Shown one piece after another: positions 1 to 41,334 of a stretch of 41,334 nt of DNA. The DNA is from a virus. The notes beneath the pieces are model-generated. The model did not search any database, was not told the DNA's origin, and saw only the letters and a program-made list of their open reading frames with translations. The translations under genes were made by a program, and so were the position numbers. Positions within the stretch are counted from its first letter, which is position 1, and each line of letters opens with the position of its first letter. The stretch covers positions 1-41,334 of the IMG/VR virus record IMGVR_UViG_3300047552_000224. One strand, given 5' to 3'.

Positions 1-426
1 TAGGCCAGCCGCAGGAGTTACTTTCGTGCGCTTCTCTGGCTCTTTGTCGATTGGCTTACTGGAGTCAAGCGCATCGTGTTCAACGATTTCAAGGGCCATC
101 ACATACAGGTAACGTCGCTGATAAGTTTCTACAGCTCCAAGGTTCTGGATAGGGTGGCAACCTTTAAGCTGCGCGTCAGCCATAGGGCTTGTGAACATCA
201 CCCAATCTTCCGGTTTGTCACAGTCAAAGATTGTTAGGGTTGCGTGTTCTGCACTGAATTTCGTGGTGGCGCACAATCCAAATTCATGGAACAGCTCATT
301 GATCGTTGGCAGGAAGTCACCTAGTTCAAAGTATTTGTACTTTGCAAAAGTGTTCTCGCCTGACTTCTTCATTGGCTTGCTTTGTAGTGCTACTCGGCAA
401 GCGTTTAGTTTTTGGTAAATGTTCAT
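1..426 (-). CDS. erf: ERF-family single-strand annealing protein (3' end cut by window)
   Basis: This is the first 142 codons of an ERF-superfamily recombinase. The family anneals complementary single strands during phage recombination and genome circularisation. The frame runs open to base 1, so the C-terminus is missing only because the window ends. It starts MNIYQKLNACRVAL and matches the complete right-hand copy (39516-40169) with apparently synonymous changes only. The ATG overlaps the stop of the preceding small gene by four bases (ATGA), so it is translationally coupled in the leftward early operon. Confidence 0.85.
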   Translation of the reverse strand, partial: MNIYQKLNACRVALQSKPMKKSGENTFAKYKYFELGDFLPTINELFHEFGLCATTKFSAEHATLTIFDCDKPEDWVMFTSPMADAQLKGCHPIQNLGAVETYQRRYLYVMALEIVEHDALDSSKPIDKEPEKRTKVTPAAGL

Positions 427-611
427 GCTGTTGCTCCTTCTTTGATTTCCTTGCGCCTCATGTCAGCAGCTACACGCATAAACTCTGCGGCTTCTTCCTG
501 CTCTTGCATGTAACGCTCAAATTCATAAGCCATCATTGCGGCTTCCATGTTTGACGTTGCGTATTCCTCATCCTCTGAGGTCTGTTCAAACCATGCTCTG
601 TCGTTAGCCAT
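423..611 (-). CDS. Small acidic early protein, 62 aa, unknown function
   Basis: Start chosen at ATG 611 because CAGGAG lies 8 bases upstream; an upstream in-frame ATG at 647 has no such site. The protein is rich in Glu, Ala and Met (MANDRAWFEQTSEDEEY...), probably helical in its second half, and ends with a basic patch (RRKEIKE). A 61-residue homologue is at 40300-40485. It is the second reading frame behind the leftward early promoter. No family recognised; it could be an anti-host or recombination accessory protein, but that is only position-based. Confidence 0.7.
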   Translation of the reverse strand: MANDRAWFEQTSEDEEYATSNMEAAMMAYEFERYMQEQEEAAEFMRVAADMRRKEIKEGATA

Positions 612-672
612 GATTGAACTCCTGCACGAACCACGTTTGAAAATCACTGACTAGATAGTTATCCGGTTTCAT
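604..672 (-). CDS. Small early peptide, 22 aa
   Basis: Reads MKPDNYLVSDFQTWFVQEFNHG, with GAGGTGATG just before the ATG. Its stop overlaps the start of the next gene (shared bases 604-611). The same peptide, one residue different (K for Q), is at 40478-40546; two of the codon changes between the copies are silent. It may be a real micro-protein or a leader peptide that couples translation to the next gene. Confidence 0.5.
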   Translation of the reverse strand: MKPDNYLVSDFQTWFVQEFNHG

Positions 673-693
673 GTCATCACCTCGCTATAGTTG

Positions 694-904
694 TTAGTGA
701 CCGTCTTTCCGGCCTGCCATCTGGTTACGATCCAGCGCATTGGCAATTTCACGTTTGCCGTTGCCGGTTAAGTGGTGTCGCTGGTATAGGGCTTCTCGTT
801 AGAACGTGCCTCATCCGCACAGCAACTCTCACCACAACAAAACAACCTCGCTAGAAGATGCTTTATTGCGCCCACTCGTCTGATACTTATTGAATGGGCC
901 AGCC
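694..904 (-). pseudogene. Degenerate reading frame in the PL leader
   Basis: A protein-like frame runs leftward from a TAGGAGG site at about 910. It includes ADEARSNEKPYTSDT, hits a TAA at 768-770, and continues in a shifted frame as TGNGKREIANALDRNQM to a stop at 694. In the right copy the two parts are in one frame, so the left copy looks one base short. In the right copy the upstream part is interrupted by an inverted-repeat element. No canonical start is clear. It may instead be leader RNA whose translation is coincidental. Confidence 0.3.
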
Positions 905-944
905 TCCTATGTTTAGAGACCCGCCGGAGTGCTTACTTGGGTCT

Positions 945-981
945 GACTGGTGCTTCCAGTCCATCGGGTTGTAAAAGAGCG
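945..981 (-). promoter_or_regulatory. nut-like antitermination site (boxA + boxB)
   Basis: On the leftward transcript, CGCTCTTTTACA (981-970) closely resembles the boxA consensus. Eight bases later comes a hairpin GACTGG-AAGCA-CCAGTC (961-945), with a 6 bp stem and 5-base loop. This order, spacing and loop size are those of lambda nutL. It lies about 100 bases after the predicted PL start. A diverged counterpart is at 40908-40951. The cognate N-like protein was not identified. Confidence 0.65.
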
Positions 982-1089
982 TTATTCGGTGTTACTCAAC
1001 ATCGAGGACTTACTGCACGGCCTGTTTCTAGTGGCACTCACCTGTCTTAGCGTGGGTTCGTTCCTGTGTTGTTTGCTTCAGTGGTTCCC

Positions 1090-1118
1090 ATTATCCAGAT
1101 TTGGCTATTCTGTGTCAA
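1090..1118 (-). promoter_or_regulatory. Leftward early promoter PL
   Basis: On the minus strand, TTGACA (1118-1113) and GATAAT (1095-1090) are separated by exactly 17 bases. It points toward the recombination genes, with a predicted start near 1083 and a leader of about 400 bases before the first small gene. Both hexamers are overlapped by the operators at 1094-1105 and 1117-1128, as expected for repressor control. Confidence 0.85.
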
Positions 1119-1128
1119 CATATTTGGA
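1094..1128. promoter_or_regulatory. Operator pair OL
   Basis: Two sites of the form TCCA-N4-TGGA: TCCAGATTTGGC (1094-1105) and AACATATTTGGA (1117-1128), 23 bases centre to centre. The same two-site layout is in OR at 2268-2303, where one site is TCCATATTTGGA. The sites cover the -10 and flank the -35 of PL. The likely ligands are the repressor at 1892-2272 and the Cro-like protein at 2317-2511. Confidence 0.65.
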
Positions 1129-1133
1129 GAAAA

Positions 1134-1163
1134 TTGTGCAAATAAAAATATCGCGGGTAAAAT
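1134..1163 (+). promoter_or_regulatory. Candidate rightward promoter into structured RNA
   Basis: TTGTGC (1134-1139) and TAAAAT (1158-1163) are 18 bases apart. These are the same hexamers as in the PR candidate at 2282-2310, which has a 17-base spacer. A transcript would begin near 1170 and run straight into the pseudoknot-forming element at 1187-1293. The -35 is weak, so this is tentative. Confidence 0.4.
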
Positions 1164-1186
1164 TTGCCCCGTTGGTAGTGACGAAC

Positions 1187-1293
1187 CAACCCACGGGATA
1201 AGGAAAGAACCTCTCAGTAGAGGCTTGTATGCACGCACCTTGTCCCGTGTTGGCCTGTCAAGCCCAAGTCTCTACTAAGGGGTTTTTGCTTTT
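1187..1293 (+). ncRNA. Candidate pseudoknot RNA ending in a T-run
   Basis: CACGGGATAAGG (1193-1204) can pair over 12 bp with CCTTGTCCCGTG (1239-1250). CCTCTCAGTAGAG (from 1211) can pair with CTCTACTAAGGGG (to about 1282), continued by GCTTG/CAAGC. The two stems interleave, so they form an H-type pseudoknot or mutually exclusive folds. The second stem is followed by TTTTTGCTTTT, like a terminator. A short hairpin (GTTGGT/ACCAAC) precedes it. No known family recognised. Confidence 0.45.
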
Positions 1294-1329
1294 CAGGTGT
1301 CTCGCAAGTCCGGTGTTTTCAAGGGATAA

Positions 1330-1666
1330 CCAGCGTCGGGCTGGACATGCGGTGATAGTGGCAAACTAAGCGAAAGTGCCAGCCGTGGGGATGGATAGCG
1401 GCTACATGGAGTTGTAAGCAAAAGGCGGAGACTACTGGCGAACAGCTTGTAGTATCAAAACCGAGTAGCACTATGTAGTGCAGTACGCTCAGAGCGGCAC
1501 GGGTTAGCGCACAATGGCTAACGATAGTCTGAGCAGAGAGGACGGAACATTTAGCGTTAAGCCTCTCACCGTGGTCGAGTGCCGGATACTTCAGGACGCT
1601 TGAGCGGTTTTCCTTCCGAGGCTACTTCACTGTGGTCTTGGGAGGATATTGCCCATAATCTCCTCC
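1330..1666. ncRNA. Dense hairpin region, candidate large structured RNA
   Basis: There is no convincing gene here, but stems follow each other closely. They are CCAGC/GCTGG (1330-1344), TGGCA/TGCCA (1359-1381), AGCCG/CGGCT (1381-1403), ACTAC/GTAGT (1431-1453) and GCACTA/TAGTGC (1468-1481). Then GCTCAGA/TCTGAGC (1487-1534) encloses GTTAGC/GCTAAC (1503-1522), followed by GAGAGG/CCTCTC (1536-1567) and GGAGGA/TCCTCC (1641-1666). The strand is uncertain because perfect stems read either way. A comparable hairpin order occurs at 41257-41324 in the other end copy. Confidence 0.4.
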
Positions 1667-1707
1667 GTTTCTTAGTCCGCTTAGGGGTTCTATGACCTTC
1701 GTCTGAA

Positions 1708-1736
1708 TTGTGTAAATCGGTAGTTGGTACTAGACT
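1708..1736 (+). promoter_or_regulatory. Candidate promoter for the 59-residue gene
   Basis: TTGTGT (1708-1713) and TAGACT (1731-1736) are 17 bases apart. The start would be near 1743, giving a leader of about 20 bases that contains GTGAGAAC before the ATG at 1765. Confidence 0.4.
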
Positions 1737-1764
1737 GCTGTAAAAAAACACAGTGAGAACAGCA

Positions 1765-1944
1765 ATGACACAACAAGCAGACAATAGGGAATTAACGCTA
1801 GAACAAATAACCAATCTGTTCGTGGATGGGGGGGTTAGGCGTTTGTATGTAGTGGCTCAGTTTGATGATCTGAGCGTAGGAGATTACAGCTTTAGCCGAG
1901 CAGACCTTTCGGCCTTGCCTTCTTCATCTGAGCAAAGAAAATAA
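1765..1944 (+). CDS. Hypothetical protein in the immunity region, 59 aa
   Basis: The ATG at 1765 follows GTGAGAAC and a promoter-like pair at 1708-1736. The product starts MTQQADNRELTLEQITNLFV and is mostly acidic in its first half, with a Ser-rich, basic end. It converges on the repressor gene and overlaps its 3' end by 53 bases. No domain recognised. Position inside an immunity region suggests a gene expressed in the lysogen, but it could be spurious, since nothing but signals and composition supports it. Confidence 0.4.
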   Translation: MTQQADNRELTLEQITNLFVDGGVRRLYVVAQFDDLSVGDYSFSRADLSALPSSSEQRK

Positions 1945-2272
1945 TCTCTGATCTGTCTTTTGCGTCTAGTTCTCTAAACGTCTTAAGCAAGGTGAATTCT
2001 TCAGGCGACAAATTAACCCCGTTGCCTGGATCACCAACAAATTCAGCCAAAGTAAGACCAAACACTTTAGCCACATCCTCAACATTCTGAATGCTGACGT
2101 TTGTGCTGTCCGGCTTTCGTATGCGCCTGACTGTGTTGTAACTCACACCTGATCGCTCCTCGATTTTCTCCAGCGTGTCTAAGTCTGGATGCAATCGCAT
2201 CAGGTTATTGAGTCGGTCTGCCATCTTCTGTTTTGTGTTCATGGCTAAATTTTCACGCATTCGCTTATTCAT
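1892..2272 (-). CDS. Phage repressor, XRE/lambda-type HTH, up to 126 aa
   Basis: A short CI-type repressor that should hold the prophage silent by binding the OL and OR operators. The helix-turn-helix is seen at about residues 34-56 (LEKIEERSGVSYNTVRRI), followed by an XRE-like tail (VEDVAKVFGLTLAEFV). At this length there is no LexA-like autocleavage domain, so RecA-driven cleavage is not expected. Three in-frame starts exist (2272, 2260, 2242). None has a strong ribosome site, and the first lies inside an operator, so a leaderless start from a PRM promoter is possible. It is divergent from the Cro-like gene, the classic switch arrangement. Confidence 0.85.
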   Translation of the reverse strand: MNKRMRENLAMNTKQKMADRLNNLMRLHPDLDTLEKIEERSGVSYNTVRRIRKPDSTNVSIQNVEDVAKVFGLTLAEFVGDPGNGVNLSPEEFTLLKTFRELDAKDRSEIIFFAQMKKARPKGLLG

Positions 2273-2303
2273 ATGTGGCTATTGTGCAATATCCATATTT
2301 GGA
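2268..2303. promoter_or_regulatory. Operator pair OR
   Basis: Sites TTCATATGTGGC (2268-2279) and TCCATATTTGGA (2292-2303), 24 bases centre to centre, share the TCCA-N4-TGGA form with OL. They sit between the divergent repressor and Cro-like genes. The second site lies in the spacer of PR; the first overlaps the longest repressor start. Confidence 0.65.
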
Positions 2304-2310
2304 ATAAAAT
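2282..2310 (+). promoter_or_regulatory. Rightward early promoter PR
   Basis: TTGTGC (2282-2287), a 17-base spacer and TAAAAT (2305-2310). The predicted start falls at about 2316-2318, on or next to the ATG of the Cro-like gene, so the messenger would be leaderless. An operator fills most of the spacer. Confidence 0.6.
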
Positions 2311-2316
2311 AGCCGA

Positions 2317-2511
2317 ATGATGAATGTAGACCTCCTCAAATTTGTTACAGAGCATTTAGCGAAAAATCGCGGGAAGCACCGTGAAATAGCTAAGGCTACT
2401 GGTGTCCCTTACACAACTATCAGGAATATCTCTCAAGGGGTAACGCCTAACCCTGGTGTTGTCTCTGTTCAGGCGATCTATAACTTCTTTGTAGCAGCAA
2501 ACCAGAAATAA
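2317..2511 (+). CDS. Cro-like HTH regulator, 64 aa
   Basis: A small DNA-binding protein in the cro position, the first gene from PR and opposite the repressor. The helix-turn-helix is at about residues 22-40 (REIAKATGVPYTTIRNIS). It should compete for the same operators and favour lytic growth. There is no Shine-Dalgarno sequence. The predicted transcription start coincides with tandem ATG codons (2317 and 2320), so leaderless translation is likely. Confidence 0.75.
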   Translation: MMNVDLLKFVTEHLAKNRGKHREIAKATGVPYTTIRNISQGVTPNPGVVSVQAIYNFFVAANQK

Positions 2512-2573
2512 ACAAGCCCCGCATCTGTTGGCGCAGATCAGGGCCGTGACCAATGACTAATAAGGAGTCAAAG

Positions 2574-2867
2574 ATGGGAAATGATTTTAACACCGAACTA
2601 ACCAGCAAACAAAAGCTAGTTAACTTGCTGCAAGCCAATGTCAGTGACGTTCTTGATGTTGTTGAGGCTCATGCAAAAGAGTTTTACGACGGTCATTACA
2701 CGGTGATGGCGTTCACAACTGGAGTCAAAGCAATGTTTGGCACTGTTGATTTAGATACTGGTTATGGTCGCTATGACTTGCTGGCACTTCCTGCATATCC
2801 AGATGCTCATATCGCAATGTCTCACATGCTGGCGTTTGATAAAAATTACTGCGTGGTGTCAGCATGA
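2574..2867 (+). CDS. Hypothetical early protein, 97 aa
   Basis: Start chosen at ATG 2574 because AAGGAG lies 6 bases upstream; an earlier in-frame ATG at 2553 has no such site. The sequence (MGNDFNTELTSKQKLVNLLQ...) shows no recognised motif. It sits first in the replication operon and its stop overlaps the helicase start (ATGA), so the two are probably co-translated. Confidence 0.7.
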   Translation: MGNDFNTELTSKQKLVNLLQANVSDVLDVVEAHAKEFYDGHYTVMAFTTGVKAMFGTVDLDTGYGRYDLLALPAYPDAHIAMSHMLAFDKNYCVVSA

Positions 2868-4405
2868 ACCTCCGTCAATTTCAAAGCGTAGCCATCGCCT
2901 CGTGCCGTCAAGAGTTGGCAGCAGGTAACAAGCGGGTAGTCCTCTATTCGCCTACTGGATCGGGGAAAAGTGTCATGTGCGAGGCACTTACACAGATGGC
3001 ACTATCCAAGGGTAAGCGGGTGGCAATCCTGGCTAACCGTGTGCAGCTTGTTAATCAAATGGCCGAACGCTTTACGGCCTCCGGTATTGAGTACGGCATT
3101 CTGCAAGGACAGAACACAAACGCAATTCATAAGCCTGTTGTCATCTGTTCTATCAATACCGTTGATAACCGTGGATTGCCTGATGCAGATTTAATCATCG
3201 TGGATGAAGGTCATGCGGTAGCAGGTTCAAAGATGTACAGAGAATTGCTGTTCAAGCTGAATAACGTGCCTGTAATTGCGTTGACCGCAACACCGTTCAG
3301 TAAGGGAATGGCAAAGACGTACAAAGAACTAGGCGACGAGCCTTTGTTTCAGTCTTTGGTAATTGCTGAAACCATCAAAGGTTTGATTGGCCTTGGTTAC
3401 TTGGTTGATTGCGAGATTTACGCACCATCTGAACCAGACCTTACGGGCGTTAAAGTGTCCCGTAATGCTTTTGGTGAGTATGACTATTCAGACAAGTCTA
3501 AAGAGTTTGCAGCAGCAGTAGATAAGCCGCAACTGGTTGGGGATATTGTCGAGCACTGGCACAAGCTGGCAGAAGGCAAGCCGACTATTTGTTTTGCTAC
3601 CTCTATCGACCACTCGCACCACATCGTTAATAAGTTCAAAGAGTCAGGTGTACTGGCAGAGCATATCGACTGCTATATGCAAGAGGATAAGAAAGAGCAA
3701 ATCCTTAAGGATTTCAAGGCTGGAAAATTCACTGTTTTAAGCAACTGCTCATTGTTGGCTGAAGGTTTCGACTATCCAGCTTGCGAAGTGATGATCCTGG
3801 CGCGTCCTACAAAGTCACTGATTCGCTACATTCAGATGGTAGGCCGCATTCTCCGTCCGTTCCACGGTAAAGATCGTGGGCTTCTGCTAGATCACTCTGG
3901 CTCTGTGCAACAGCTTGGTTTTCCTACTGATGACTTGCCGCTTGAATTGGATGATGGCACGGCAGCAAAGAAACAGACCAAAGAGCGAGAAGAACCAAAA
4001 CCTAAGAAGTGCGCCAAGTGCCATTTCGTTAAGCCGCCTAAGACTCCTAAATGCCCGAATTGCGGATTTGAGGCTGTACGCACACCGGAGGAGGTTGCTG
4101 TCGAGGCTGGCTACTTAGTGAAGATAACTAAGAAATCAAAATCAGATAAGCAGCAGATTTGGTCAGAGTGTTTGGGGCTTGTTCTGGAGCGAGGAAAAAG
4201 CACCGCTTACGCAAGCCGCTTGTATGAGTCAATCGTAGGCGTTCTTCCTCGTTCGCTTGATTACTTGCCATTGCCTCCATCTGATGCGGTTAGGGGGAAA
4301 GAACACAGCAACCGCATTGCCTACGCTAAACGAATGAGCAAGCAAGCTGATTCTTCTCGTCTTGATGCACTTAAGAAGATGGTGGAGGAAAAACGTGCTA
4401 ACTAA
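2864..4405 (+). CDS. Superfamily 2 DEAD/DEAH-type helicase, 513 aa
   Basis: ATP-dependent nucleic-acid helicase, probably for phage replication start or remodelling. Visible motifs are the Walker A SPTGSGKS (residues 29-36), the Walker B DEGH (about 113-116), motif III TAT (about 140) and motif VI QMVGRILRP near 330. A zinc ribbon CAKC...CPNC lies at about 381-400. Such phage SF2 helicases often sit beside a primase, as here. The start overlaps the preceding gene by four bases. Confidence 0.9.
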   Translation: MNLRQFQSVAIASCRQELAAGNKRVVLYSPTGSGKSVMCEALTQMALSKGKRVAILANRVQLVNQMAERFTASGIEYGILQGQNTNAIHKPVVICSINTVDNRGLPDADLIIVDEGHAVAGSKMYRELLFKLNNVPVIALTATPFSKGMAKTYKELGDEPLFQSLVIAETIKGLIGLGYLVDCEIYAPSEPDLTGVKVSRNAFGEYDYSDKSKEFAAAVDKPQLVGDIVEHWHKLAEGKPTICFATSIDHSHHIVNKFKESGVLAEHIDCYMQEDKKEQILKDFKAGKFTVLSNCSLLAEGFDYPACEVMILARPTKSLIRYIQMVGRILRPFHGKDRGLLLDHSGSVQQLGFPTDDLPLELDDGTAAKKQTKEREEPKPKKCAKCHFVKPPKTPKCPNCGFEAVRTPEEVAVEAGYLVKITKKSKSDKQQIWSECLGLVLERGKSTAYASRLYESIVGVLPRSLDYLPLPPSDAVRGKEHSNRIAYAKRMSKQADSSRLDALKKMVEEKRAN

Positions 4406-5315: not shown

Positions 5316-5542
5316 CAGAACGGGAAGCAATCATGGCCGAATCAGGTTTGAGCATTAAAGACGCATTCAATGACACAGAACGGTGGCGCATCCAGACAGA
5401 AGCGCGTCACGCACTGGATTTCTATTCACTGGAAGAACGTAGAGCATTCCTAGAGTCAGTAGAACGCTGGCGTGGTGAAGTAGGGCGCAAGTGCATGGAA
5501 AAAGCTATCACTCAGGAATGGAACGCGAGGAAGGCAGCATGA
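5300..5542 (+). CDS. Hypothetical early protein, 80 aa
   Basis: Overlaps the primase end by 16 bases. Its second half (SLEERRAFLESVERWRGEVGRKCMEKA) resembles small helical proteins common in Pseudomonas and Burkholderia phages, but no function is known to me. An alternative start at ATG 5333 has a better ribosome site (GGAAG), which would give 69 residues. The stop overlaps the next start (ATGA). Confidence 0.65.
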   Translation: MSYELAEREAIMAESGLSIKDAFNDTERWRIQTEARHALDFYSLEERRAFLESVERWRGEVGRKCMEKAITQEWNARKAA

Positions 5543-6949: not shown

Positions 6950-8106
6950 AGTACGCCACACCACGCCAAGCCGAATGTATTAAAGCGTATATCGAACATG
7001 GCTCTAGCAGAAAAGCAGCAGCAGCATTGGGAATAGCTAAATCAGGTGTAAATGATGCGATTAATGCGGTAAAGGTAAAAGCCGCATTACAAGGCGAATC
7101 ACCAGAGCATGATATGACTAGGTCTGTGCCTGATGGCTTTAAGGTTAAAGGCGTATCGACGTACTACAACAAGGATGGTGTTGCATCCGGTCAGTGGGTT
7201 AAGTCGTCTGCTGATGAGCAAAGACGCTATGAGTTAATGCTAGAGGCTGTTGAGGCTCTAAAGGAAGAATTGCCTGTTTATGAGCCGGTTGAATTTGCAG
7301 GATCAGGTAACTCTGATTTGCTTTGCATGTACGTTATTACCGATTACCACTTTGCTCAATTGTCGGATGGTTTTGAGACTCGTGGCGATGACTACGATCT
7401 GAAGATTGCAGAGAGGCAGCTAATAGCCTGGTTCTCTCAGGCAATAGAGCAATCACCTGATGCTGACGTTGGGGTGTTTGCACAGTGCGGTGACTTCATG
7501 CACTTCTCTGGTTCGGCTCTTGAGGCTGTTACCGAGATGAGCAAAAACATTCTTGATGCTGACTCTCGGCTTTATAAGGTTGTTAGGGTTGTAATTCGTG
7601 TAATCAGATCAGTAATCAAAATGCTTTTGGATAAGCATAAAACTGTTCATGTGATATTTGCTGAAGGCAATCACGATATGTCAGCGAGTGTGTATATGCG
7701 CGAATGGTTGAGTGTAATGTATGAGGATGAGCCGCGTATCACAATTGATACATCAGCTGATCCTTATTACGCATACGAATTTGGAAACACATCAATCTTT
7801 GTGCATCATGGACACAAAAGAAAAGTATCTGATATTTCAAAGGTATTCGCATCAAAGTTCCGCGAAATGTTCGGGCGCACTAAATACTCGTATGCGCACA
7901 TGGGTCATTTGCATCATGTGGATGTGAAAGAAGATCACCTAATGATTGTTGAGCAGCATAGAACGCTTGCAGCTTCAGATGCACATTCGAGTCGTGGCGG
8001 GTATTCATCTGGCCGAGATGCAAAGGTTATTGTGTATCACCGTAAATATGGCGAGGTTGCTAGAACAACAATAAATTCATCAATGGTTGCTGATTGTCAT
8101 GGCTAA
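6934..8106 (+). CDS. Metallophosphoesterase with N-terminal HTH, 390 aa
   Basis: Residues about 10-45 form a helix-turn-helix (RQAECIKAYIEHGSSRKAAA). The rest is a calcineurin-type phosphoesterase with metal motifs TDYHF (about 135), CGDFMH (about 185), EGNHD (about 243), HHGHK and GHLHH (about 323). Likely a phosphodiesterase or nuclease acting on DNA; the true substrate is unknown. The GTG start has AAAGGA upstream and overlaps ninG by 16 bases. The gene ends the replication and recombination block. Confidence 0.8.
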   Translation: MQYLLKYATPRQAECIKAYIEHGSSRKAAAALGIAKSGVNDAINAVKVKAALQGESPEHDMTRSVPDGFKVKGVSTYYNKDGVASGQWVKSSADEQRRYELMLEAVEALKEELPVYEPVEFAGSGNSDLLCMYVITDYHFAQLSDGFETRGDDYDLKIAERQLIAWFSQAIEQSPDADVGVFAQCGDFMHFSGSALEAVTEMSKNILDADSRLYKVVRVVIRVIRSVIKMLLDKHKTVHVIFAEGNHDMSASVYMREWLSVMYEDEPRITIDTSADPYYAYEFGNTSIFVHHGHKRKVSDISKVFASKFREMFGRTKYSYAHMGHLHHVDVKEDHLMIVEQHRTLAASDAHSSRGGYSSGRDAKVIVYHRKYGEVARTTINSSMVADCHG

Positions 8107-9479: not shown

Positions 9480-10785
9480 ACACCAGATCAGACTGCCGGA
9501 GAAGTTGATTCCGGTATTCCTTGGGCCTGCTGACGTTCGATGGGCTTGTGGTGGTCGAGGCTCGGCTAAGACTCGCTCATTTGCTGCAATGATTGCGGTT
9601 CGTGGCCGCATGTATGGTGAAGCAGGTATCACAGGGCAGTTGCTCTGCGCTCGTCAGTTTATGAACTCATTGGATGATTCTTCGCTAGAGGAATGTAAGC
9701 GAGCCATTGAGGACGATGAGTGGCTGAGTGAATACTACGAGATAGGCGACAAGTACATCCGAAGTCGTGATGGGCTTATCTGGTTCTCATTCGCTGGCCT
9801 GGATAGGAATATCAACAGCGTTAAATCAAAGGGCCGCATTCTAATCTGTTGGGTAGATGAAGCGGAACCTGTTACAGAAGCAGCGTTCCAGATTCTTGAG
9901 CCAACGCTACGGGAAGAGGGCGAAGGTTGGAATGCTGAACTATGGGTAACATGGAATCCAGTACGCAAGACTGCGCCGGTAGAGACGCGTTATCGTAACT
10001 CTCAGAGTCCTATGGTTAAGGGCTGCGTCATTAACTGGAAAGACAATCCTAAGTTCCCAGACAAACTAGAGCGTCAGCGAGTTAGAGATTTGGAAGAACG
10101 TCCAGATCAATACTCGCATATTTGGGATGGTGAATACGCTACAGCTATTGCCGGTGCTTACTTTGCTAAAGACCTGGTGCTAGCTAATGAGCAAGGGCGA
10201 ATCAGCAAGGTTTCATTCGATCCAATGTTTAGAACCAAAGTATTCTGCGACTTAGGTGGAACTGGTGCTAAAGCTGATGCCTTCGCTATGTGGCCTGCTC
10301 AGTTTATCGCTAGAGAGATTCGCACAAGGGATCATTACGAGGTTCAAGGCCAACCATTATCTGCACATGTTCAATACTTACGGTCAAAAGGTTATACGCC
10401 TGACAATACCGATATTTGGTTGCCGCATGATGGCGATACGAATGAAAAGGTTATAGATACATCTTTTAGAAAAGCATTTGAGGATGTAGGTTATACGGTT
10501 GAAGTTGTGCCTAATCAGGGCAAAGGCGCAGCGAAACAGCGAGTAGAAGCGGCTCGACGTAGATTCCCTATGGTTTGGTTTGATAAAGACACAACAGAAG
10601 GCGGCAGATTGGCTCTCGGTTGGTATCACGAAAAGATTGATGATATTCGCGGAATGGGAATGGGGCCGGAACATGACTGGTCATCGCATTCATCAGATGC
10701 TTTCGGTTTAATGTGTGTTGCTTATCAAGAGCCGAATAATTGGGGAACTCAAACGCTTAAATATCCGTCTTTGTCTTACGCTTGA
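9472..10785 (+). CDS. terL: Terminase large subunit, 437 aa
   Basis: ATP-driven DNA packaging motor and nuclease. Walker A GGRGSAKT is at residues 27-34 and Walker B ILICWVDEAE at about 125-134. The C-terminal RNase-H-like nuclease begins around FCDLGGTGAKADAFAMW. The length is normal for Terminase_3-type proteins. The start ATG 9472 overlaps the small subunit's stop. Confidence 0.92.
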   Translation: MTKHQIRLPEKLIPVFLGPADVRWACGGRGSAKTRSFAAMIAVRGRMYGEAGITGQLLCARQFMNSLDDSSLEECKRAIEDDEWLSEYYEIGDKYIRSRDGLIWFSFAGLDRNINSVKSKGRILICWVDEAEPVTEAAFQILEPTLREEGEGWNAELWVTWNPVRKTAPVETRYRNSQSPMVKGCVINWKDNPKFPDKLERQRVRDLEERPDQYSHIWDGEYATAIAGAYFAKDLVLANEQGRISKVSFDPMFRTKVFCDLGGTGAKADAFAMWPAQFIAREIRTRDHYEVQGQPLSAHVQYLRSKGYTPDNTDIWLPHDGDTNEKVIDTSFRKAFEDVGYTVEVVPNQGKGAAKQRVEAARRRFPMVWFDKDTTEGGRLALGWYHEKIDDIRGMGMGPEHDWSSHSSDAFGLMCVAYQEPNNWGTQTLKYPSLSYA

Positions 10786-32444: not shown

Positions 32445-33407
32445 TCAGGCTTTTTTCTTCAATGTCATAGCAGTCGCCACTGGTGTTTCGCGGCTTCTGA
32501 GATACCTGTTATGGCTTGATTCAGACTTGTGACCTAGTAGGACTTTGCTGTCTACGCTATCCCGTTGAGCATCAGTAGCTGCCTTTGCTCTCAAGTCATG
32601 GACATGTGCATCTTCTACGCCAGCATCAAGACAAGCCTTGCGCCAATGCCTCATAACCGTGTCGTAATTGAGTTTAGAGCCGTTTCTGTTGTGGAGTAGC
32701 GTGATTCCTTTAACGGACTGATGAATCGCTTTAGCGGCCTTTACAGTGCGCTCTAGGTCAGTGTTCCAAGCCACAATCATCCGGTGCTTAGTTTTCTGCT
32801 GTTTGAACGCAATGCCTTCATCCGTTAAGTCAGAGTATTTGATAGCCATTACGTCGCTGATTCGCTGGCCTGTCATGTAGCACAAATCCATGATGATCCT
32901 GAGTTGTGAATCTGCATATTTGTGTATGGCGGCATACTCTGAATCTGTGATGTACCTATCCCTAGCCACGGTTTTCATTGGCTTTGTATCTCTGGCGACG
33001 TTTCTATCTACTAGATCGTCAAAGATTGCCATATCCAGCGCACCAATCAGAACTGCTCTCATAACGTTAGCTGATCCTGGCTTGTCCTTGTAATACCTTT
33101 GGACTTCCATGATTGATTTGGCTGTGACTTGGGATGGTTCAAACTCAGCGAATATCTTGGATAGGTGGTTTTTCGCCACCTTGTACGATTTAATCGTGTT
33201 ATCCGCTAGGGTGAGGCTGGCTATGTATCGCTCTAAGAGTGCAGGCATCTTAGAAGTGGGCGCAGATAGCTTTTTGGCGTAGTTCTTTAGTGCTGTAGGT
33301 AAATCTTTGCCTATCTGTTCCCACTTGTTCTGTTTGACGTAATAGTACGCACCGTTACGCAGAAAAACGCAAGGTGGGAGGTGCTTGTCCTTCTTTCTTG
33401 GACGCAT
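32445..33407 (-). CDS. int: Tyrosine integrase, 320 aa
   Basis: Site-specific recombinase for integration and excision. Catalytic residues are visible: Arg182 (TGQRISDVM), Lys in KQQKTKHR (about 205), His270-x-x-Arg273 (HDLRAKA), His293 (LGHKSE) and Tyr302 (NRYLRS). A SAM-like core-binding region covers about 50-140. It is the last gene of the leftward operon and overlaps the DUF4224 gene, suggesting coupling. Confidence 0.93.
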   Translation of the reverse strand: MRPRKKDKHLPPCVFLRNGAYYYVKQNKWEQIGKDLPTALKNYAKKLSAPTSKMPALLERYIASLTLADNTIKSYKVAKNHLSKIFAEFEPSQVTAKSIMEVQRYYKDKPGSANVMRAVLIGALDMAIFDDLVDRNVARDTKPMKTVARDRYITDSEYAAIHKYADSQLRIIMDLCYMTGQRISDVMAIKYSDLTDEGIAFKQQKTKHRMIVAWNTDLERTVKAAKAIHQSVKGITLLHNRNGSKLNYDTVMRHWRKACLDAGVEDAHVHDLRAKAATDAQRDSVDSKVLLGHKSESSHNRYLRSRETPVATAMTLKKKA

Positions 33408-36281: not shown

Positions 36282-36282
36282 T

Positions 36283-36489
36283 TCATTCTCCAAATTGATA
36301 CCAAACATTACGCTTACAATCGCCAATTCTTCCAACTCGCTTAACCCTATGTCGATTTACATACCGGCAAAGAATTGTCGCGGCTGACTGCGGTGTTAAC
36401 CCTGACTTCTCGGCTAAACACTTTGGCGTAAATGGTGTATTGCCCATGAGTGATTTGTAGTAATCGAAACCGAATAGATATTCGCTCAT
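36283..36489 (-). CDS. Small HTH-like protein, 68 aa
   Basis: TPKCLAEKSGLTPQSAATILCRYVNRHRVKRVGRI has the spacing of a winged-helix DNA-binding motif, ending in NVWYQFG. It may act with the larger winged-helix gene just upstream, which it overlaps by four bases (ATGA). Target unknown. Confidence 0.6.
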   Translation of the reverse strand: MSEYLFGFDYYKSLMGNTPFTPKCLAEKSGLTPQSAATILCRYVNRHRVKRVGRIGDCKRNVWYQFGE

Positions 36490-36977
36490 ACAATCATTCC
36501 CATCTTGTATAGCTTGGCTCCTTGTGACTTCTTGAACACAATCACTAGCCCGCTTTTCATTAGATTGTTCAAATCCTTATAAACCGTGGATTCGTTAATC
36601 TCAGTCTTGCGAACAATGTCTTTTGCTGTCATTGGCCCACGGTGCAGAGATAGAACAATCTTATGTTCTCGAATCTTGCGTTGGCGTTGGCCTTCTAGCG
36701 TTCGCTGTTTAGCGATTTCTCTCAGGTGAGCGTGTGCGCCTTTAGGTGTTTTGTATTCAGGCTTGTTATCTAGTTTCTCGGAGAACCCTTCTACAAACCC
36801 GTCCTCGTCCTCTCGGAACTTAATCTCTGGATGATTACATTTTCCGCAAGCTGTCATTCGTGCTTTGTAACCTGGAAGGCAATCAGTGCAGAACGATTTA
36901 ACCTTTCCGGTGAATCTGGCGCACTCTTTCCAAAGCGTGAATGTTTTGCGATCTACGCATTCGTATTCGGTGCTCAT
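36486..36977 (-). CDS. Winged-helix protein with Cys clusters, 163 aa
   Basis: The N-terminal part has Cys pairs (FCTDC, ACGKCNH) that probably bind zinc. The C-terminal part (LSLHRGPMTAKDIVRKTEINESTVYKDLNNLMKSGLV) is a winged helix. This suggests a regulator or nucleic-acid-binding protein. The start at ATG 36977 is preferred to 36992. It overlaps the next gene by four bases. Confidence 0.65.
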   Translation of the reverse strand: MSTEYECVDRKTFTLWKECARFTGKVKSFCTDCLPGYKARMTACGKCNHPEIKFREDEDGFVEGFSEKLDNKPEYKTPKGAHAHLREIAKQRTLEGQRQRKIREHKIVLSLHRGPMTAKDIVRKTEINESTVYKDLNNLMKSGLVIVFKKSQGAKLYKMGMIV

Positions 36978-36978
36978 T

Positions 36979-37125
36979 TTATAGCCCGCCAATAAACCGC
37001 TCTAAATCGTCTGTAACAACGAGATATTCAAAACCATCATCACGCTGCACTAAACATGTAATAGGCCCGTACAGAGCGATTGTGTAGGTTCTATCAAGAT
37101 ATTTAAATGTTTTACCGTTGTTCAT
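36979..37125 (-). CDS. Small protein, 48 aa
   Basis: Reads MNNGKTFKYLDRTYTIALYG, then PITCLVQRDDGFEYLVVTDD and LERFIGG. It overlaps the preceding gene by 14 bases and fills what would otherwise be a gap in a tightly packed operon. The ribosome site is weak (GAG). Function unknown. Confidence 0.5.
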   Translation of the reverse strand: MNNGKTFKYLDRTYTIALYGPITCLVQRDDGFEYLVVTDDLERFIGGL

Positions 37126-37315
37126 TTTTTTCTCGCTCATTTGAACTTTTAAAAGCCTCTATATATACGCAGGCATCCATCAATTCTTCCTGTAGGTGAG
37201 TAAGCCATCCTATCCAAGAAATATCTGTTCTTTCTGTGGTTACACCGTATTTGCTTAATCCTACTTTGCTGCGCTCCAGTAGTTTCTGGCATACAGCTTC
37301 AACGTTTTTATCCAT
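37112..37315 (-). CDS. Conserved small phage protein, 67 aa
   Basis: LLERSKVGLSKYGVTTERTDISWIGWLTHLQEELMDACVYIEAF is a pattern common in phages (helical, with the KYG and EELMDA segments), related in style to MazG-like proteins. It is too short to assign pyrophosphatase activity. Starts by TGATG overlap with the previous stop. Confidence 0.65.
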   Translation of the reverse strand: MDKNVEAVCQKLLERSKVGLSKYGVTTERTDISWIGWLTHLQEELMDACVYIEAFKSSNEREKNEQR

Positions 37316-37521
37316 CACACAACCCCATGACAACGTGACGCAGTAACTACTAAACGTCCTTTATCAAACAATTCGTAATAACCATCATGGCGAATATTAT
37401 TAACAGTAAATTCAGGAATATATTCTTTCCCGTTAATCAACCGTTTAACGCCTTTAAGGATTACTTTGTCGCCTACTTGATGCTGATATAAACGGTGCGG
37501 CGGTGTTGTTATCCTAGTCAT
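37315..37521 (-). CDS. Hypothetical protein, 68 aa
   Basis: Start set at ATG 37521, with CAGGTG upstream. Reads MTRITTPPHRLYQHQVGDKV, then ILKGVKRLINGKEYIPEFTV: small, basic, beta-like, possibly an SH3-type fold. It overlaps the zinc-finger gene by 8 bases. Unknown function. Confidence 0.55.
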   Translation of the reverse strand: MTRITTPPHRLYQHQVGDKVILKGVKRLINGKEYIPEFTVNNIRHDGYYELFDKGRLVVTASRCHGVV

Positions 37522-37714
37522 TTGATTCACCTGAACACCTTGCACATACTCGGTGGTATTTGCATGACAGTGGAGATATAAGAACGCGCTTGCTTCCAAT
37601 TAATCCTCTGTTCTGTTTGCAAATGGCGCATTTAATCGTTCCCAATGTGTTGCCAGTCGTCTTATCGTGGCGTTGTGTTGTGGCTCGGTAATTAGCTTGT
37701 TGCTGTGCGTTCAT
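37514..37714 (-). CDS. Small zinc-finger protein, 66 aa
   Basis: KCAICKQNRG and later CKYHRVCARC form a Cys4-type zinc site. The N-terminus is Gln-rich. It overlaps the preceding gene by 23 bases and the following by 8. The role could be nucleic-acid or protein binding; no known family recognised. Confidence 0.5.
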   Translation of the reverse strand: MNAQQQANYRATTQRHDKTTGNTLGTIKCAICKQNRGLIGSKRVLISPLSCKYHRVCARCSGESND

Positions 37715-37946
37715 TTCGTACTTTCAACATTTCATCGGCAATTCTGTATGCTCTTGATGCAACAAAGTGGCTTGGCACTCCATCGCAATCTTGAACAGCA
37801 GACATTGCGAACTTGTCCCGCAGATTGGCCTCTGCAACTGTCGCAATACGTTCTAAATCACCAATCGCAATACTCACCACTGTGCATGGCTCTGCGCCTT
37901 GGCATTGCAACTGACGCGCTTCTCGTAGGTTTGTTATGTGTTTCAT
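37692..37946 (-). CDS. Hypothetical protein, 84 aa
   Basis: MKHITNLREARQLQCQGAEP is followed by ATVAEANLRDKFAMSAVQDCDGVPSHFVASRAYRIADEML. It looks like a small soluble helical protein. ATGA overlap with the upstream gene supports its start. No family recognised. Confidence 0.6.
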   Translation of the reverse strand: MKHITNLREARQLQCQGAEPCTVVSIAIGDLERIATVAEANLRDKFAMSAVQDCDGVPSHFVASRAYRIADEMLKVRNERTATS

Positions 37947-38128
37947 GCTGTTTCCTCAAGCATATGAACGTATAGCTGTCCGACTAATGCGCGATTATCT
38001 GCCTGTGCTAATAGCCGTTTTTTTCTTGCTAATTCAATTTCCAATTCATCAACTTCTTTTTGTAATTTGTCGCGTCTTACTTGGTCGTTATATGCCAAGC
38101 CTCTAAGAATTGCCTCTTGTCCAGTCAT
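37943..38128 (-). CDS. Small coiled-coil protein, 61 aa
   Basis: Start set at ATG 38128, which overlaps the methyltransferase stop (ATGA) and has GGGGAAAG just upstream. DKLQKEVDELEIELARKKRLLAQA is a coiled coil. Function unknown. Confidence 0.55.
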   Translation of the reverse strand: MTGQEAILRGLAYNDQVRRDKLQKEVDELEIELARKKRLLAQADNRALVGQLYVHMLEETA

Positions 38129-38712
38129 AGCTTTCCCCATTGATTAGCCATTGCGATTGCCACTCCGTCGAATGTCTTACTGCGCTCTTTCCATCTATCC
38201 GGCCCAGGAGGTAAATAGTGGATTCGCTGCTGTTGATTCTTTGGAAGTGATTTAAACGTGTCATAAACATTGTCAGTCTCAGCCAGAGCAGGAAGATTCT
38301 TTAGCCATAAGCAAGTAGCTTTTGATTCAGGATGACCAAACATCCAAGGCTGAATAATCTGATCCGGCTTTCTCCACAATCGAGACATAATGCAGACAGG
38401 GTTTTCAATCGCCACATATTTAACGTGTTCAGAACGTCGCACGATCTTCATAAAGAAAGATGCTGATGCTTGCTGCCTTCCATCTAGTTGCTTTTGCTTA
38501 AACCATGCTGCTCCGCTTACTGCTAAATCAGTGCATGGCGGGTGAGCGATAACCAAATCCCACGGGTAATCTATTACGTCGAACATATCGCCCTGGTAAT
38601 GCGGCCCTGGTGATTCTGTTGGCAAAAGATCGCAACTCATAGCTTCGTGCCCACCCCGCAAGAATTGATCTCGAACCGTTCCGGAATACTCGCAAGCCAC
38701 TAAAACCTTCAC
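38125..38712 (-). CDS. DNA methyltransferase-like protein, 195 aa
   Basis: Begins KVLVACEYSGTVRDQFLRGGHEAMSCDLLPTE, a Rossmann-type SAM-binding start. A HPPCTDLAVSG motif with a Pro-Cys pair like cytosine-5 methyltransferases and YVAIENPVCIMS follow. It is shorter than full methyltransferases. Widely annotated in phages as a methyltransferase, and possibly protects phage DNA; activity is unproven. Confidence 0.65.
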   Translation of the reverse strand: MKVLVACEYSGTVRDQFLRGGHEAMSCDLLPTESPGPHYQGDMFDVIDYPWDLVIAHPPCTDLAVSGAAWFKQKQLDGRQQASASFFMKIVRRSEHVKYVAIENPVCIMSRLWRKPDQIIQPWMFGHPESKATCLWLKNLPALAETDNVYDTFKSLPKNQQQRIHYLPPGPDRWKERSKTFDGVAIAMANQWGKL

Positions 38713-38909
38713 GATTTAATCCCTGTTGGCGTACTGGAGCAAAAGTGCAATTCACCTCCGATCCAGATAGGTTGATCTTTTGTGGATAGGCATTTAGCTG
38801 CCACCTTTTCCAACTCGCTTACATACTGTTGATTAGGTGATAACCACCACAGCGCAATAAATAATGTGATTAGCCACCACAGTGCAGCTTGTATAAATTT
38901 GATATTCAT
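38709..38909 (-). CDS. Small membrane protein, 66 aa
   Basis: MNIKFIQAALWWLITLFIAL is one membrane helix, followed by an outside-type tail (LEKVAAKCLSTKDQPIW). No strong ribosome site is seen; an in-frame ATG upstream (38933) lies over a terminator and is less likely. The stop overlaps the methyltransferase start (ATGA). Confidence 0.6.
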   Translation of the reverse strand: MNIKFIQAALWWLITLFIALWWLSPNQQYVSELEKVAAKCLSTKDQPIWIGGELHFCSSTPTGIKS

Positions 38910-38920
38910 TTGATTAGCCC

Positions 38921-38950
38921 AAAAAAACGCCACCCTTTGTTAGCGGTGGC
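38921..38950 (-). terminator. Strong intrinsic terminator in leftward operon
   Basis: On the minus strand, GCCACC pairs with GGTGGC across a 10-base loop and is followed by GTTTTTTT. It separates ERF and the SSB-like gene from the long accessory and integrase block. Genes beyond it would need antitermination, fitting the nut site near PL. Confidence 0.85.
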
Positions 38951-38991
38951 ACAAGGACGGATTTTCACCGTCAGGGAGGGAGACAACGAAA

Positions 38992-39060
38992 CTAGATAAT
39001 TAAATAAGCAGCAATTCCGATAAATAACAGCACGGTTTCAAATCCAACAAGAATATTCAT
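38992..39060 (-). CDS. Small hydrophobic peptide, 22 aa
   Basis: Reads MNILVGFETVLLFIGIAAYL with two more hydrophobic residues; the peptide is almost all membrane helix. GGAGGA is 5 bases before the ATG at 39060, one of the best ribosome sites in the window. It sits between a structured RNA (39085-39178) and the terminator. Confidence 0.55.
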   Translation of the reverse strand: MNILVGFETVLLFIGIAAYLII

Positions 39061-39084
39061 GATTATCCTCCATATATTAAGGTG

Positions 39085-39178
39085 AGTGGCCTTATGTATC
39101 CACGCTCGATTAAGTTCCAGTTAATCGAATATTACGGCCTGTTTATACTGGGCGCGACCAGTCATAAAGCCACTCTCG
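39085..39178 (-). ncRNA. Candidate three-way-junction RNA
   Basis: On the minus strand, GAGTGGCTTTATG pairs with CATAAGGCCACTC over 13 bp, using one U-G pair that would be a mismatch on the other strand. It encloses ACTGG/CCAGT and CGATTAA/TTAATCG hairpins. No gene fits: a 44-residue rightward frame (39094-39228) runs against all its neighbours. Confidence 0.5.
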
Positions 39179-39251
39179 TTAATATCCCGCTTACTCTTTA
39201 CGGGGCCATCAAGCGTCCTGCCTTATGAGCAGAAGTGGCAGTTATGCAACA

Positions 39252-39503
39252 TCAAAAAGGCAAATCACTTTCCAGTTCTTCAACCTTCTTTGGTGCTGCC
39301 TGTTTCGGTGCTTGCTGTGCATCCTTTGGCTTAAGCGACAGGCTCATAAACTTGCTGCCTGATTTGGATTCTTTAATCCATGCGTTAAGCCAGTATTCAA
39401 CGCCTTCCACATTTACTGATCCATTGTAATCAGCGTGGGTATCTTGCGATTTCTTGTCATTCTTGAACAAAGAACCGCGATTAGTATTATCAAATTCAGC
39501 CAT
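39252..39503 (-). CDS. SSB-like phage protein with acidic tip, 83 aa
   Basis: NRGSLFKNDKKSQDTHADYNGSVNV and WLNAWIKESKSGSKFMSLSLKPK match a small protein common beside phage recombinases. Its last residues (ESDLPF) copy the acidic C-terminal tip of bacterial SSB, which recruits partners. Located directly after ERF. It may bind single strands or recruit SSB partners. Confidence 0.7.
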   Translation of the reverse strand: MAEFDNTNRGSLFKNDKKSQDTHADYNGSVNVEGVEYWLNAWIKESKSGSKFMSLSLKPKDAQQAPKQAAPKKVEELESDLPF

Positions 39504-39515
39504 GATTTCCTTTCG

Positions 39516-40169
39516 TTAGGCTTGTGCAGCAAATGAATCAGCGTTCTTAGCCTGATCCGCTTGTTTCTTAATCGCAGTACGCGTCTTGCTAGATACAAGA
39601 GTTAGCACCGCTCCTTTTTCTTCAGTCTGAAGATGTTTGTCTCGCAAGAACTTCAGAACGTCACCGCCGTCAGCAACTACTGCGTCAGCTTCCTCTGCAA
39701 TCTCTCGCAAGAACTTCTGTTCTTCTTCGTCGAACGATTCGACTAGGCCAGCCGCAGGAGTTACTTTCGTGCGCTTCTCTGGCTCTTTGTCGATTGGCTT
39801 ACTGGAGTCAAGCGCATCGTGTTCAACGATTTCAAGGGCCATCACATACAGGTATCGACGCTGATAAGTTTCTACCGCTCCAAGGTTCTGGATAGGGTGG
39901 CAACCTTTAAGTTGTGCGTCAGCCATAGGGCTAGTGAACATCACCCAATCTTCCGGTTTGTCACAGTCGAAGATTGTTAGCGTGGCGTGTTCTGCGCTGA
40001 ATTTCGTTGTGGCGCACAATCCAAACTCATGGAACAGTTCATTGATCGTTGGCAGGAAGTCACCTAGTTCAAAGTATTTGTACTTTGCAAAAGTGTTCTC
40101 GCCTGACTTCTTCATTGGCTTGCTCTGTAGTGCTACGCGGCAAGCGTTTAGCTTTTGGTAAATGTTCAT
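39516..40169 (-). CDS. erf: ERF-family single-strand annealing protein, complete, 217 aa
   Basis: Full copy of the gene cut at base 1. The N-terminal ERF core runs to about residue 140 (FAKYKYFELGDFLPTINELF, LGAVETYQRRYLYVMAL); the C-terminal part is charged. Three ATGs in a row occur (40175, 40172, 40169); the last matches the left copy. AGAAGGA lies just before. It anneals strands in recombination, with the SSB-like gene next in the operon. Confidence 0.9.
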   Translation of the reverse strand: MNIYQKLNACRVALQSKPMKKSGENTFAKYKYFELGDFLPTINELFHEFGLCATTKFSAEHATLTIFDCDKPEDWVMFTSPMADAQLKGCHPIQNLGAVETYQRRYLYVMALEIVEHDALDSSKPIDKEPEKRTKVTPAAGLVESFDEEEQKFLREIAEEADAVVADGGDVLKFLRDKHLQTEEKGAVLTLVSSKTRTAIKKQADQAKNADSFAAQA

Positions 40170-40171
40170 CA

Positions 40172-40312
40172 TCATTCCTTCTCAACGTAAAAGGTGGATT
40201 CAGGATAGTTTTCTGCGTTTTCTTCTATCCAGAAATTAGCGTGTCCTTCTGCTCTAAATTCACCTTGGCAAAATTCCTCGCCTGTTTCGGTAACCTGGAT
40301 TACGCGCCACAT
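40172..40312 (-). CDS. Small protein present only in the right copy, 46 aa
   Basis: Reads MWRVIQVTETGEEFCQGEFR, then ANFWIEENAENYPESTFYVE. It overlaps both neighbours (13 bases upstream; its TGA overlaps the ERF ATG). The left copy lacks it entirely, with the upstream gene joined straight to ERF. Function unknown. Confidence 0.6.
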   Translation of the reverse strand: MWRVIQVTETGEEFCQGEFRAEGHANFWIEENAENYPESTFYVEKE

Positions 40313-40485
40313 TCTTTAATCTCCTTGCGCCTCATGTCAGCAGCTACACGCATAAACTCTGCGGCTTCTTCCTGCTCTTGCATGTAACGCTCAAATTCAT
40401 AAGCCATCATTGCGGCTTCCATGTTGGAGGACGGATATTCCTCATCCTCGCAAGTCTGTTCAAACCATGCTCTGTCATTAGCCAT
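40300..40485 (-). CDS. Small acidic early protein, 61 aa (right copy)
   Basis: Homologue of 423-611, with changes such as EDEEYPSS for EDEEYATS and a different last few residues. AAGGAG lies 8 bases before ATG 40485. Same place behind the second PL. Function unknown. Confidence 0.7.
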   Translation of the reverse strand: MANDRAWFEQTCEDEEYPSSNMEAAMMAYEFERYMQEQEEAAEFMRVAADMRRKEIKECGA

Positions 40486-40546
40486 GATTGAACTCCTTGA
40501 CGAACCACGTTTGAAAATCACTGACTAGGTAGTTATCCGGTTTCAT
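40478..40546 (-). CDS. Small early peptide, 22 aa (right copy)
   Basis: Matches 604-672 except one residue, MKPDNYLVSDFQTWFVKEFN in this copy. GAGGTGATG precedes the ATG. Overlaps the next gene by 8 bases. Confidence 0.5.
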   Translation of the reverse strand: MKPDNYLVSDFQTWFVKEFNHG

Positions 40547-40550
40547 GTCA

Positions 40551-40887
40551 TCACCTCGCTATAGTTGTTAGTGACGGCTTACCCGTCAGCATCTGGTTAC
40601 GATCCAGCGCATTGGCAATTTCACGTTTGCCGTTGCCGGTTACTGCGGTGTCGCTGGTATAGGGCTTCTCGTTAGAACGTGCCTCATCCGCACAGCAATA
40701 CCCACCACATTGAAGCGGGCCGGTGCTGATCTCCGGCTTTCTCAGGGTTAATCAATTCGCTAATCACCACAAAACGCGATTGACTTACTGCGCATCAGCC
40801 TGCGCATTCCGCTTCAATGTGCAGCCTCGTTAGAAGCTGCTCGGCTCGCCTTCCTCTGCACTTGTGGGCAAATCCCATCACCTTCAT
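40551..40887 (-). pseudogene. Leader reading frame interrupted by inverted-repeat element
   Basis: The upstream part starts MKVMGFAHKCRGRRAEQLLT at 40887 and runs into the element, where it stops at 40795-40797. The downstream part is open as ADEARSNEKPYTSDTAVTGN, KREIANALDRNQM, to a stop at 40551-40553, with no canonical start. The left copy (694-904) lacks the element but carries a frameshift. It may once have been an Arg-containing early protein; this is uncertain. Confidence 0.3.
40706..40821. repeat. 116 bp element with 13-base perfect inverted ends
   Basis: CACATTGAAGCGG (40706-40718) and CCGCTTCAATGTG (40809-40821) are exact inverted copies. Inside are GCCGG/CCGGC, TCAATtCGC/GCGATTGA and a TGCGCA pair. 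The left end copy goes straight from CACCACAA to CAACCTCG at this spot, so it gives an empty site. Either a small stem-loop insertion or a structured RNA. Confidence 0.6.
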
Positions 40888-40907
40888 TGGCTTGTCGGTG
40901 TGCATCT

Positions 40908-40951
40908 GGCGTACATCGCCGTATTTCCTGCTGCCTAGTTGTTAAAGAGTG
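40908..40951 (-). promoter_or_regulatory. nut-like site of the right copy
   Basis: Leftward boxA CACTCTTTAACA (40951-40940) matches the rRNA-type boxA core better than the left copy does. A hairpin GGCG-ATGTA-CGCC (40920-40908) follows after 19 bases as a possible boxB. The hairpin sequence differs from that of the left end, as would be expected for a different N-type specificity. Confidence 0.45.
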
Positions 40952-41045
40952 GTGTTACTCAACTGCGGCTAGACTCGATGCTGTGTTGCTAGGCTCTTGT
41001 CGCTCCCTGTGGAAGCTGCGGCTCGTTGTTTGCTGCGATGTGTGT

Positions 41046-41090
41046 AGATTACCAAACAGTAATATCCGTGTCAATACTAAACGGTAATAT
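41046..41090 (-). promoter_or_regulatory. Second PL with different operator pair
   Basis: Leftward TTGACA (41074-41069), 17-base spacer, TAATCT (41051-41046). Two near-identical sites AAACAGTAATAT (41054-41065) and AAACGGTAATAT (41079-41090), 25 bases apart, cover the spacer and the region upstream of the -35. They do not resemble the TCCA-N4-TGGA sites at 1094-1128, so a different repressor is implied; it is not in this window. Confidence 0.75.
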
Positions 41091-41334
41091 TTTTGTGTTA
41101 TAGTGCGCCCATCAGCTAAAGAGTCCGATAAGACAAAAGCGGAACGTTGTATTAGGTGATAGCGCAAAGGAGCGATGCGCTATAGAAGCCAGCTTTAGGG
41201 GGCCATTACCCAGCCCTGAATAACTGTTGTGTCAGCAGCTCAATAAACGTGGTGAAGGTAGCCTCACAAGGGAAGCACTACCGGATTCGATGGTAACTAA
41301 CGCACTCGGGCGAGTAGTCGAATCTAACCTAGAT
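41091..41334. other. Non-coding end region with stems
   Basis: No gene supported. Stems: ATAGCGC/GCGCTAT (41159-41183), GGTAG/CTACC (41257-41282), and GATTCGA/TCGAATC (41284-41324) around ACTCG/CGAGT. The window ends here. The corresponding stretch at the left end (1130-1764) is also non-coding and stem-rich. Confidence 0.45.

Follow-up and report, generated by a model that had tools for sequence, protein, structure and literature searches.

The two ends of the viral contig IMGVR_UViG_3300047552_000224 carry diverged copies of one early segment that lead into unrelated control regions. The record is a whole linear IMG/VR contig of 41,334 bases, to which no end-repeat class is assigned, and its full length is referred to here as the window. 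The duplicated segment comprises an ERF gene, a small open reading frame (ORF) and the start of the leader of the leftward promoter (PL). On the basis of their sequence, the two copies, termed version A (left end) and version B (right end), look like functional alleles of one locus. They lead into different operator sets, of which only the left one matches the cI/cro region present on the contig, and we read this pattern as a signature of heteroimmunity. Two co-occurring heteroimmune sister phages were probably merged into this one contig by the assembler. In addition, the PL leader of version B contains a structured RNA that resembles transfer RNA (tRNA). This RNA is the unexpected part of the contig and should interest specialists, immunity swapping itself being already known.

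Comparison of the contig with itself by BLAST returned two matches, with 96.2% identity between positions 1-426 and 39744-40169 and 93.0% identity between positions 438-836 and 40312-40709. There were no further self-matches anywhere on the contig at E<=1e-3. An initial annotation, which had described diverged copies at 1-830 and from 39744 onward, is borne out in this respect. Both ERF copies are encoded leftward and are distinguished by 16 synonymous and 0 nonsynonymous differences, all at third codon positions. Sequencing error would not produce this pattern, which is the one expected of two copies maintained as working genes. Between the two matches, version B carries 142 base pairs (bp; 40170-40311) where version A has 11 bp. 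Homology breaks off at 836/40709, a point in the leftward operon's untranslated leader, and the sequences beyond are unrelated. The longest identical run shared by the copies is 111 nucleotides (nt; 1-111 and 39744-39854) and falls exactly at the contig start; the next longest runs measure 104 and 86 nt. With 93-96% identity and a 142-bp indel, the ends are not the identical ones of a direct terminal repeat.

Each copy leads to a minus-strand PL with TTGACA and a 17-base spacer, as had been described for both ends. In the left PL (1118-1090), TTGACA at 1118-1113 is followed by GATAAT at 1095-1090; in the right PL (41074-41046), which was missing from the list of a generic promoter scan, TTGACA at 41074-41069 is followed by TAATCT at 41051-41046. 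The operators assigned to these promoters needed partial revision. For the left PL, TCCA-N4-TGGA sites had been proposed, but the perfect form occurs only once in the window, in the right operator region (OR) at 2292-2303, and the motif is so short that 0.63 chance occurrences are expected per window. The sites in the left operator region (OL) are imperfect (TCCAGATTTGGC at 1094-1105 and AACATATTTGGA at 1117-1128), although the OL block as a whole does match OR. For the right PL, the repeated sequence AAACRGTAATAT is indeed present in two exact copies 25 bp apart (41054, 41079), with no other exact copy on the contig. Both copies fall in two 16-bp inverted repeats of the form ATTAC-N6-GTAAT, lying over the -10 and -35 elements, and the operators are better read in this way.

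The operator blocks were compared by alignment score against 2000 shuffles. The left OL (1091-1133) and OR (2265-2308) agree in order and spacing and reach a score of 20, compared with a shuffle maximum of 16 (0/2000 as good). The right OL scores 8.0 with the contig's OR, a value equalled by 1454/2000 shuffles, and aligns with the left OL no better than shuffles do. These comparisons support the earlier suggestion that different operators at the same locus point to heteroimmunity, and the right cassette would have a different immunity specificity.

Immunity swapping is a classical phenomenon. Three hallmarks of a lambdoid heteroimmune pair can be read in the sequence: homologous flanks with a replaced control region, operators shared by OL and OR (left) and a different second operator set. 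As in the heteroimmune lambdoid phages lambda, 434, 21 and HK022, a common backbone is combined with a control region replaced as a unit and with different operators at the same promoter. The immunity types of cluster A mycobacteriophages likewise show a shared backbone, a control region replaced as a unit and different operators at the same promoter (PMC6550527). In contrast to both of these systems, the present pair is known from the two ends of one environmental contig, with one repressor sequenced.

We infer two genomes rather than one. The gene order makes one turn of a temperate phage map, running from PL through cI/cro, replication, head and tail genes, integrase and ERF to PL again. 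The sampled population would have held two sister genomes with a common backbone and two alternative control cassettes. Version A would pair its PL/OL with the cI/cro/OR region at 1.9-2.5 kb, while version B would combine a PL with other operators, another leader with the tRNA-like RNA, and a repressor beyond 41334. The assembler may have begun in the version A ERF copy, circled the backbone and exited through version B where the long identical stretches end. By analogy with lambda, 434 and 21, each repressor would silence its own OL/OR only, making the pair heteroimmune. An assembly chimera of this kind is the most economical reading because the record is linear and starts at the longest exact match to its other end; where a k-mer graph forks, a contig is expected to start at just such an identical run, here of 111 nt. 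The initial annotation had proposed two related phages with a shared backbone and swapped immunity cassettes, with the contig entering by one and leaving by the other, and the analysis lends this proposal good support.

Some points nevertheless weigh against two genomes. A fork at position 1 is equally expected from two tandem copies and marks the end of the assembly only. The reading is based on the assembled sequence. Among the records searched, none independent of this contig carried either cassette. The version B repressor gene, which would lie beyond 41334, is absent from the contig, and no ORF of 60 amino acids (aa) starts within 41091-41334. The main alternative, tandem prophages, had also been named in the initial annotation: in a tandem double lysogen, two heteroimmune sister prophages would lie head to tail in one host chromosome, and the contig would run from inside the first, across a shared attachment (att) junction near 32.2-32.4 kb, into the second. 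Such an arrangement fits the gene order equally well, heteroimmunity would allow the double lysogeny to be stable, and both copies are under purifying selection; from sequence, it cannot be told from a strain mixture. Sister strains within one sample are common, whereas prophages that lie in tandem and are nearly identical are generally rarer. Two separate genomes are favored because of the start at the 111-nt run, the absence of host DNA in the 41 kb and the greater frequency of strain mixtures, and we regard the tandem arrangement as unlikely.

The other explanations are less probable still. Relatives of the phage show shuffled backbone and early modules, and the right 1.6-9 kb could have been joined on by misassembly from a less closely related phage with no more than that patch in common; this is decidedly improbable in view of the unbroken contig from the integrase through ERF version B and of the 93-96% identity across 0.8 kb, which indicates close kin. 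A real duplication giving a single phage genome two PL regions would agree with the functional appearance of both copies, but the contig start cuts the first copy mid-gene, just where the longest identical run lies. Such a genome would also need a second repressor, and recombination would remove a direct repeat this large from a single phage genome. We give this explanation very little credence. Least of all can the circular gene order be ascribed to a normal genome, circular or terminally redundant, whose overlap contains sequencing errors. The 142-bp indel, followed by complete loss of homology, and the position of 16/16 ERF differences at third codon positions, all of them synonymous, refute it. 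The same codon pattern excludes an identical circular overlap after read correction, one of the two outcomes that the initial annotation had set against its own proposal.

DNA comparison gave no close relatives of the phage among the records searched, and neither did searches of viral contigs with individual proteins (ERF, helicase, small ORF, integrase). Alignment searches with ERF recovered 120 loci with ERF, often together with the next gene but with another immunity region. The match to ERF relatives does not exceed about 60% and covers part of the protein. The nearest capsid relatives, found by alignment search with the portal, reach up to 60% in the portal and 66-83% in the capsid protein of the best matches, and their early regions differ. 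When about 770 host genomes were searched with the portal, one partial match resulted. Given that the capsid relatives carry other early regions, the early module is freely exchanged in this phage group, which agrees with cassette swapping.

The tRNA-like element of the version B leader came to light when a profile of the right end was run against the fetched loci and matched two short blocks, separated by a variable gap, in unrelated phages. On the transcribed strand (40815-40711), a 7-bp closing stem is followed by a 3-nt linker, a 4-bp arm with the loop AGGCTGAT, an insert, and a 5-bp arm with the loop AGATCAGCA that joins directly to the closing stem. Across 105 distinct copies, the outer stem is 94-98% paired for exactly seven bp, falling to 69% at the eighth. 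Covariation is strong in 39 diverse copies aligned with the insert omitted: 98.3% of cells pair, 113 double changes occur compared with 27 in shuffles, and 0/500 shuffles are as high on any measure. Double changes affect 7/7 outer pairs and 4/5 pairs of the second, T-like arm. The D-like and T-like loops are complementary over six bases with one double change, a contact that has little independent support because the search pattern had specified the first of the two loops. The minimum-energy fold alone holds all three stems in 68/104 natural copies, and that of the window copy (40711-40815) is the full cloverleaf.

The element shares with tRNA, and with the tRNA-like domain of transfer-messenger RNA (tmRNA), a 7-bp acceptor-like stem, a 4-bp D-like stem and a 5-bp T-like stem in tRNA order. 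It differs from tRNA in that the T-like loop is the 9-nt AGATCAGCA rather than TTCRANY and an anticodon arm of fixed form is lacking. Its CCA end appears weak, with A C C favored at positions 73-75 and an in-register CCA in only 5/91 copies. ARAGORN reported no tRNA anywhere in the window or among those copies of the element that were checked, and no Rfam 15 family exceeded its curated cut-off at the window element or at the other copies scanned. Across both cassettes, all Rfam hits were at chance level. The insert is hypervariable, ranging from 26 to 162 nt. By eye, the insert of one copy (L309, within 7022-7193, +) appears to contain a complete tRNA and that of another (L328, within 3952-4046, +) parts of one.

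The element is widely distributed. A pattern scan found it in at least 120 viral contigs, and a lax cut-off gives matches in 192 phage records, among them HK620, HK633 and Klebsiella and Pseudomonas phages; some of the 192 matches are probably due to chance. One sequence version is present in 850/5426 complete E. coli genomes. Among the genes upstream on the same strand, the most frequent are CI-type repressors (11/49) and Q antiterminators, whose two main families have 6 and 3 members; endolysins and holins recur downstream. In HK620, the element lies between pR'/qut and the terminator tQ, in HK633 after Q, and in an E. coli prophage after a LexA-type repressor. PAJU2 (L219) has two copies, 3737-3861 (-) and 9721-9851 (+), one at each of the usual sites. 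The element is often near phage tRNA genes: it adjoins tRNA-Phe in phiEt88, and an E. coli plasmid has two copies near tRNA genes. A boxA directly precedes the element, within 25 nt, in 16 matches among 94 copies, a placement that looks lineage-specific. Neither a structural scan nor a covariance model found the element in the left PL leader. No paper was found in a literature search with the element sequence, and none of the public records inspected annotates it as RNA. Prophage-encoded Pas small RNAs were considered as its identity, and their published description does not match (PMC13192938). A separate region of PAJU2, 463-544 (-), has a sub-threshold Rfam match to Proteo-phage-1 RNA (27.9 bits, cut-off 42).

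Antitermination is how lambdoid phages control the operons whose leaders are the two usual sites of the element. It is an evenly balanced proposition that the right cassette holds a member of a widespread and so far undescribed phage RNA family, defined by a tRNA-like cloverleaf with a contact between two of its loops and a cargo arm that is hypervariable. On this reading, the element would belong to the leaders of both operons under antitermination (after CI/PL and after Q/PR'), would serve there in processing, stability or antitermination, and would be exchanged along with immunity specificity. Our preferred guess, to which we commit about half of our confidence, is a putative processing or stability element that shapes the leader RNA through its tRNA-like fold and carries the insert as cargo. 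A putative antitermination role, by analogy with HK022 put, ranks next and is distinctly more doubtful. The put sequence is about 70 nt long, forms two stem-loops and is located after PL and PR (PMC9378689). The element is similarly an untranslated structured RNA in a temperate-phage PL leader, and PAJU2 has its second copy in another controlled leader. As judged from the published description of put (PMC9378689), the element differs in being a closed tRNA-like junction, in its location after PL and after Q, and in its occurrence also in lytic phages.

If the contig does stem from a pair of sister phages, immunity swapping has been caught within an environmental population. Such a contig may enter by one immunity type and exit by another, making it unsafe to read repressor-operator pairs off it. 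The leader RNA is of wider import: temperate as well as lytic phages of many Proteobacteria share it with prophages and plasmids of E. coli, and it sits at decision points of phage transcription. The features discussed are listed in Table 1.

Table 1. Features of the two terminal control regions and related elements, with positions in the window unless a locus is named.
Feature	Position	Strand	Remarks
ERF gene version A, 5' part, truncated by contig start	1-426	-	96.2% to 39744-40169
Small ORF version A (version B counterpart 40300-40521)	423-647	-	
Small ORF and PL leader start, version A	438-836	-	93.0% to 40312-40709
Left PL leader, unrelated to right leader; boxA-like CGCTCTTTTACAAC at 968-981	837-1089	-	
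Left PL (TTGACA-17-GATAAT) and OL operators	1090-1133	-	
Candidate structured RNA, non-coding, divergent from PL	1150-1760	+	strand-specific fold
60-aa ORF, no known function, convergent with and overlapping 3' end of repressor gene	1762-1944	+	
Short CI-like repressor, 126 aa, helix-turn-helix	1892-2272	-	
OR operators, block shared with left OL, including the perfect TCCATATTTGGA (2292-2303)	2265-2308	.	
Cro-like repressor	2317-2511	+	phrog_9425 E 7e-17; 43% to PAJU2 Cro
Integrase	32445-33407	-	
ERF gene version B, complete (shared part 39744-40169)	39516-40175	-	
142-bp segment, version B only, possible small ORF inside	40170-40311	-	
Small ORF and PL leader start, version B	40312-40709	-	self-BLAST
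Conserved tRNA-like RNA element, right PL leader	40711-40815	-	
boxA-like CACTCTTTAACAAC in right PL leader	40938-40951	-	
Right PL (TTGACA-17-TAATCT), two ATTAC-N6-GTAAT operators (41048-41063, 41073-41088)	41046-41090	-	
Version B immunity region start, up to contig end	41091-41334	.	
Further copies of the tRNA-like element	L340 2492-2587; L347 2518-2654; L348 2500-2636, 2929-3032		

Both PL leaders also contain two copies of the box TTCTARCGAG on the minus strand (795-804 and 847-856 on the left, 40668-40677 and 40826-40835 on the right), with one copy of each pair in the shared part of the leader and one in the unshared part. An interpretation of these boxes as nut-like hairpins was set aside, a one-mismatch search giving 8 matches compared with 4.2 expected.

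The version A repressor (1892-2272) measures just 126 aa and a peptidase domain was not found in it, which makes self-cleavage of the SOS type look unlikely. Between the left PL and the 60-aa ORF are about 600 nt (1150-1760) without a convincing ORF. This region has no relatives in Rfam, phages, plasmids or the fetched loci. Its fold is much better than those of shuffled sequences, chiefly on the plus strand (z -5.1), and most of its 300-nt windows give values of -2.5 to -3.8 on the plus strand and about 0 on the minus strand. On this basis, it is a candidate for a large structured RNA, and it occupies what we take to be the position of rex in lambda.

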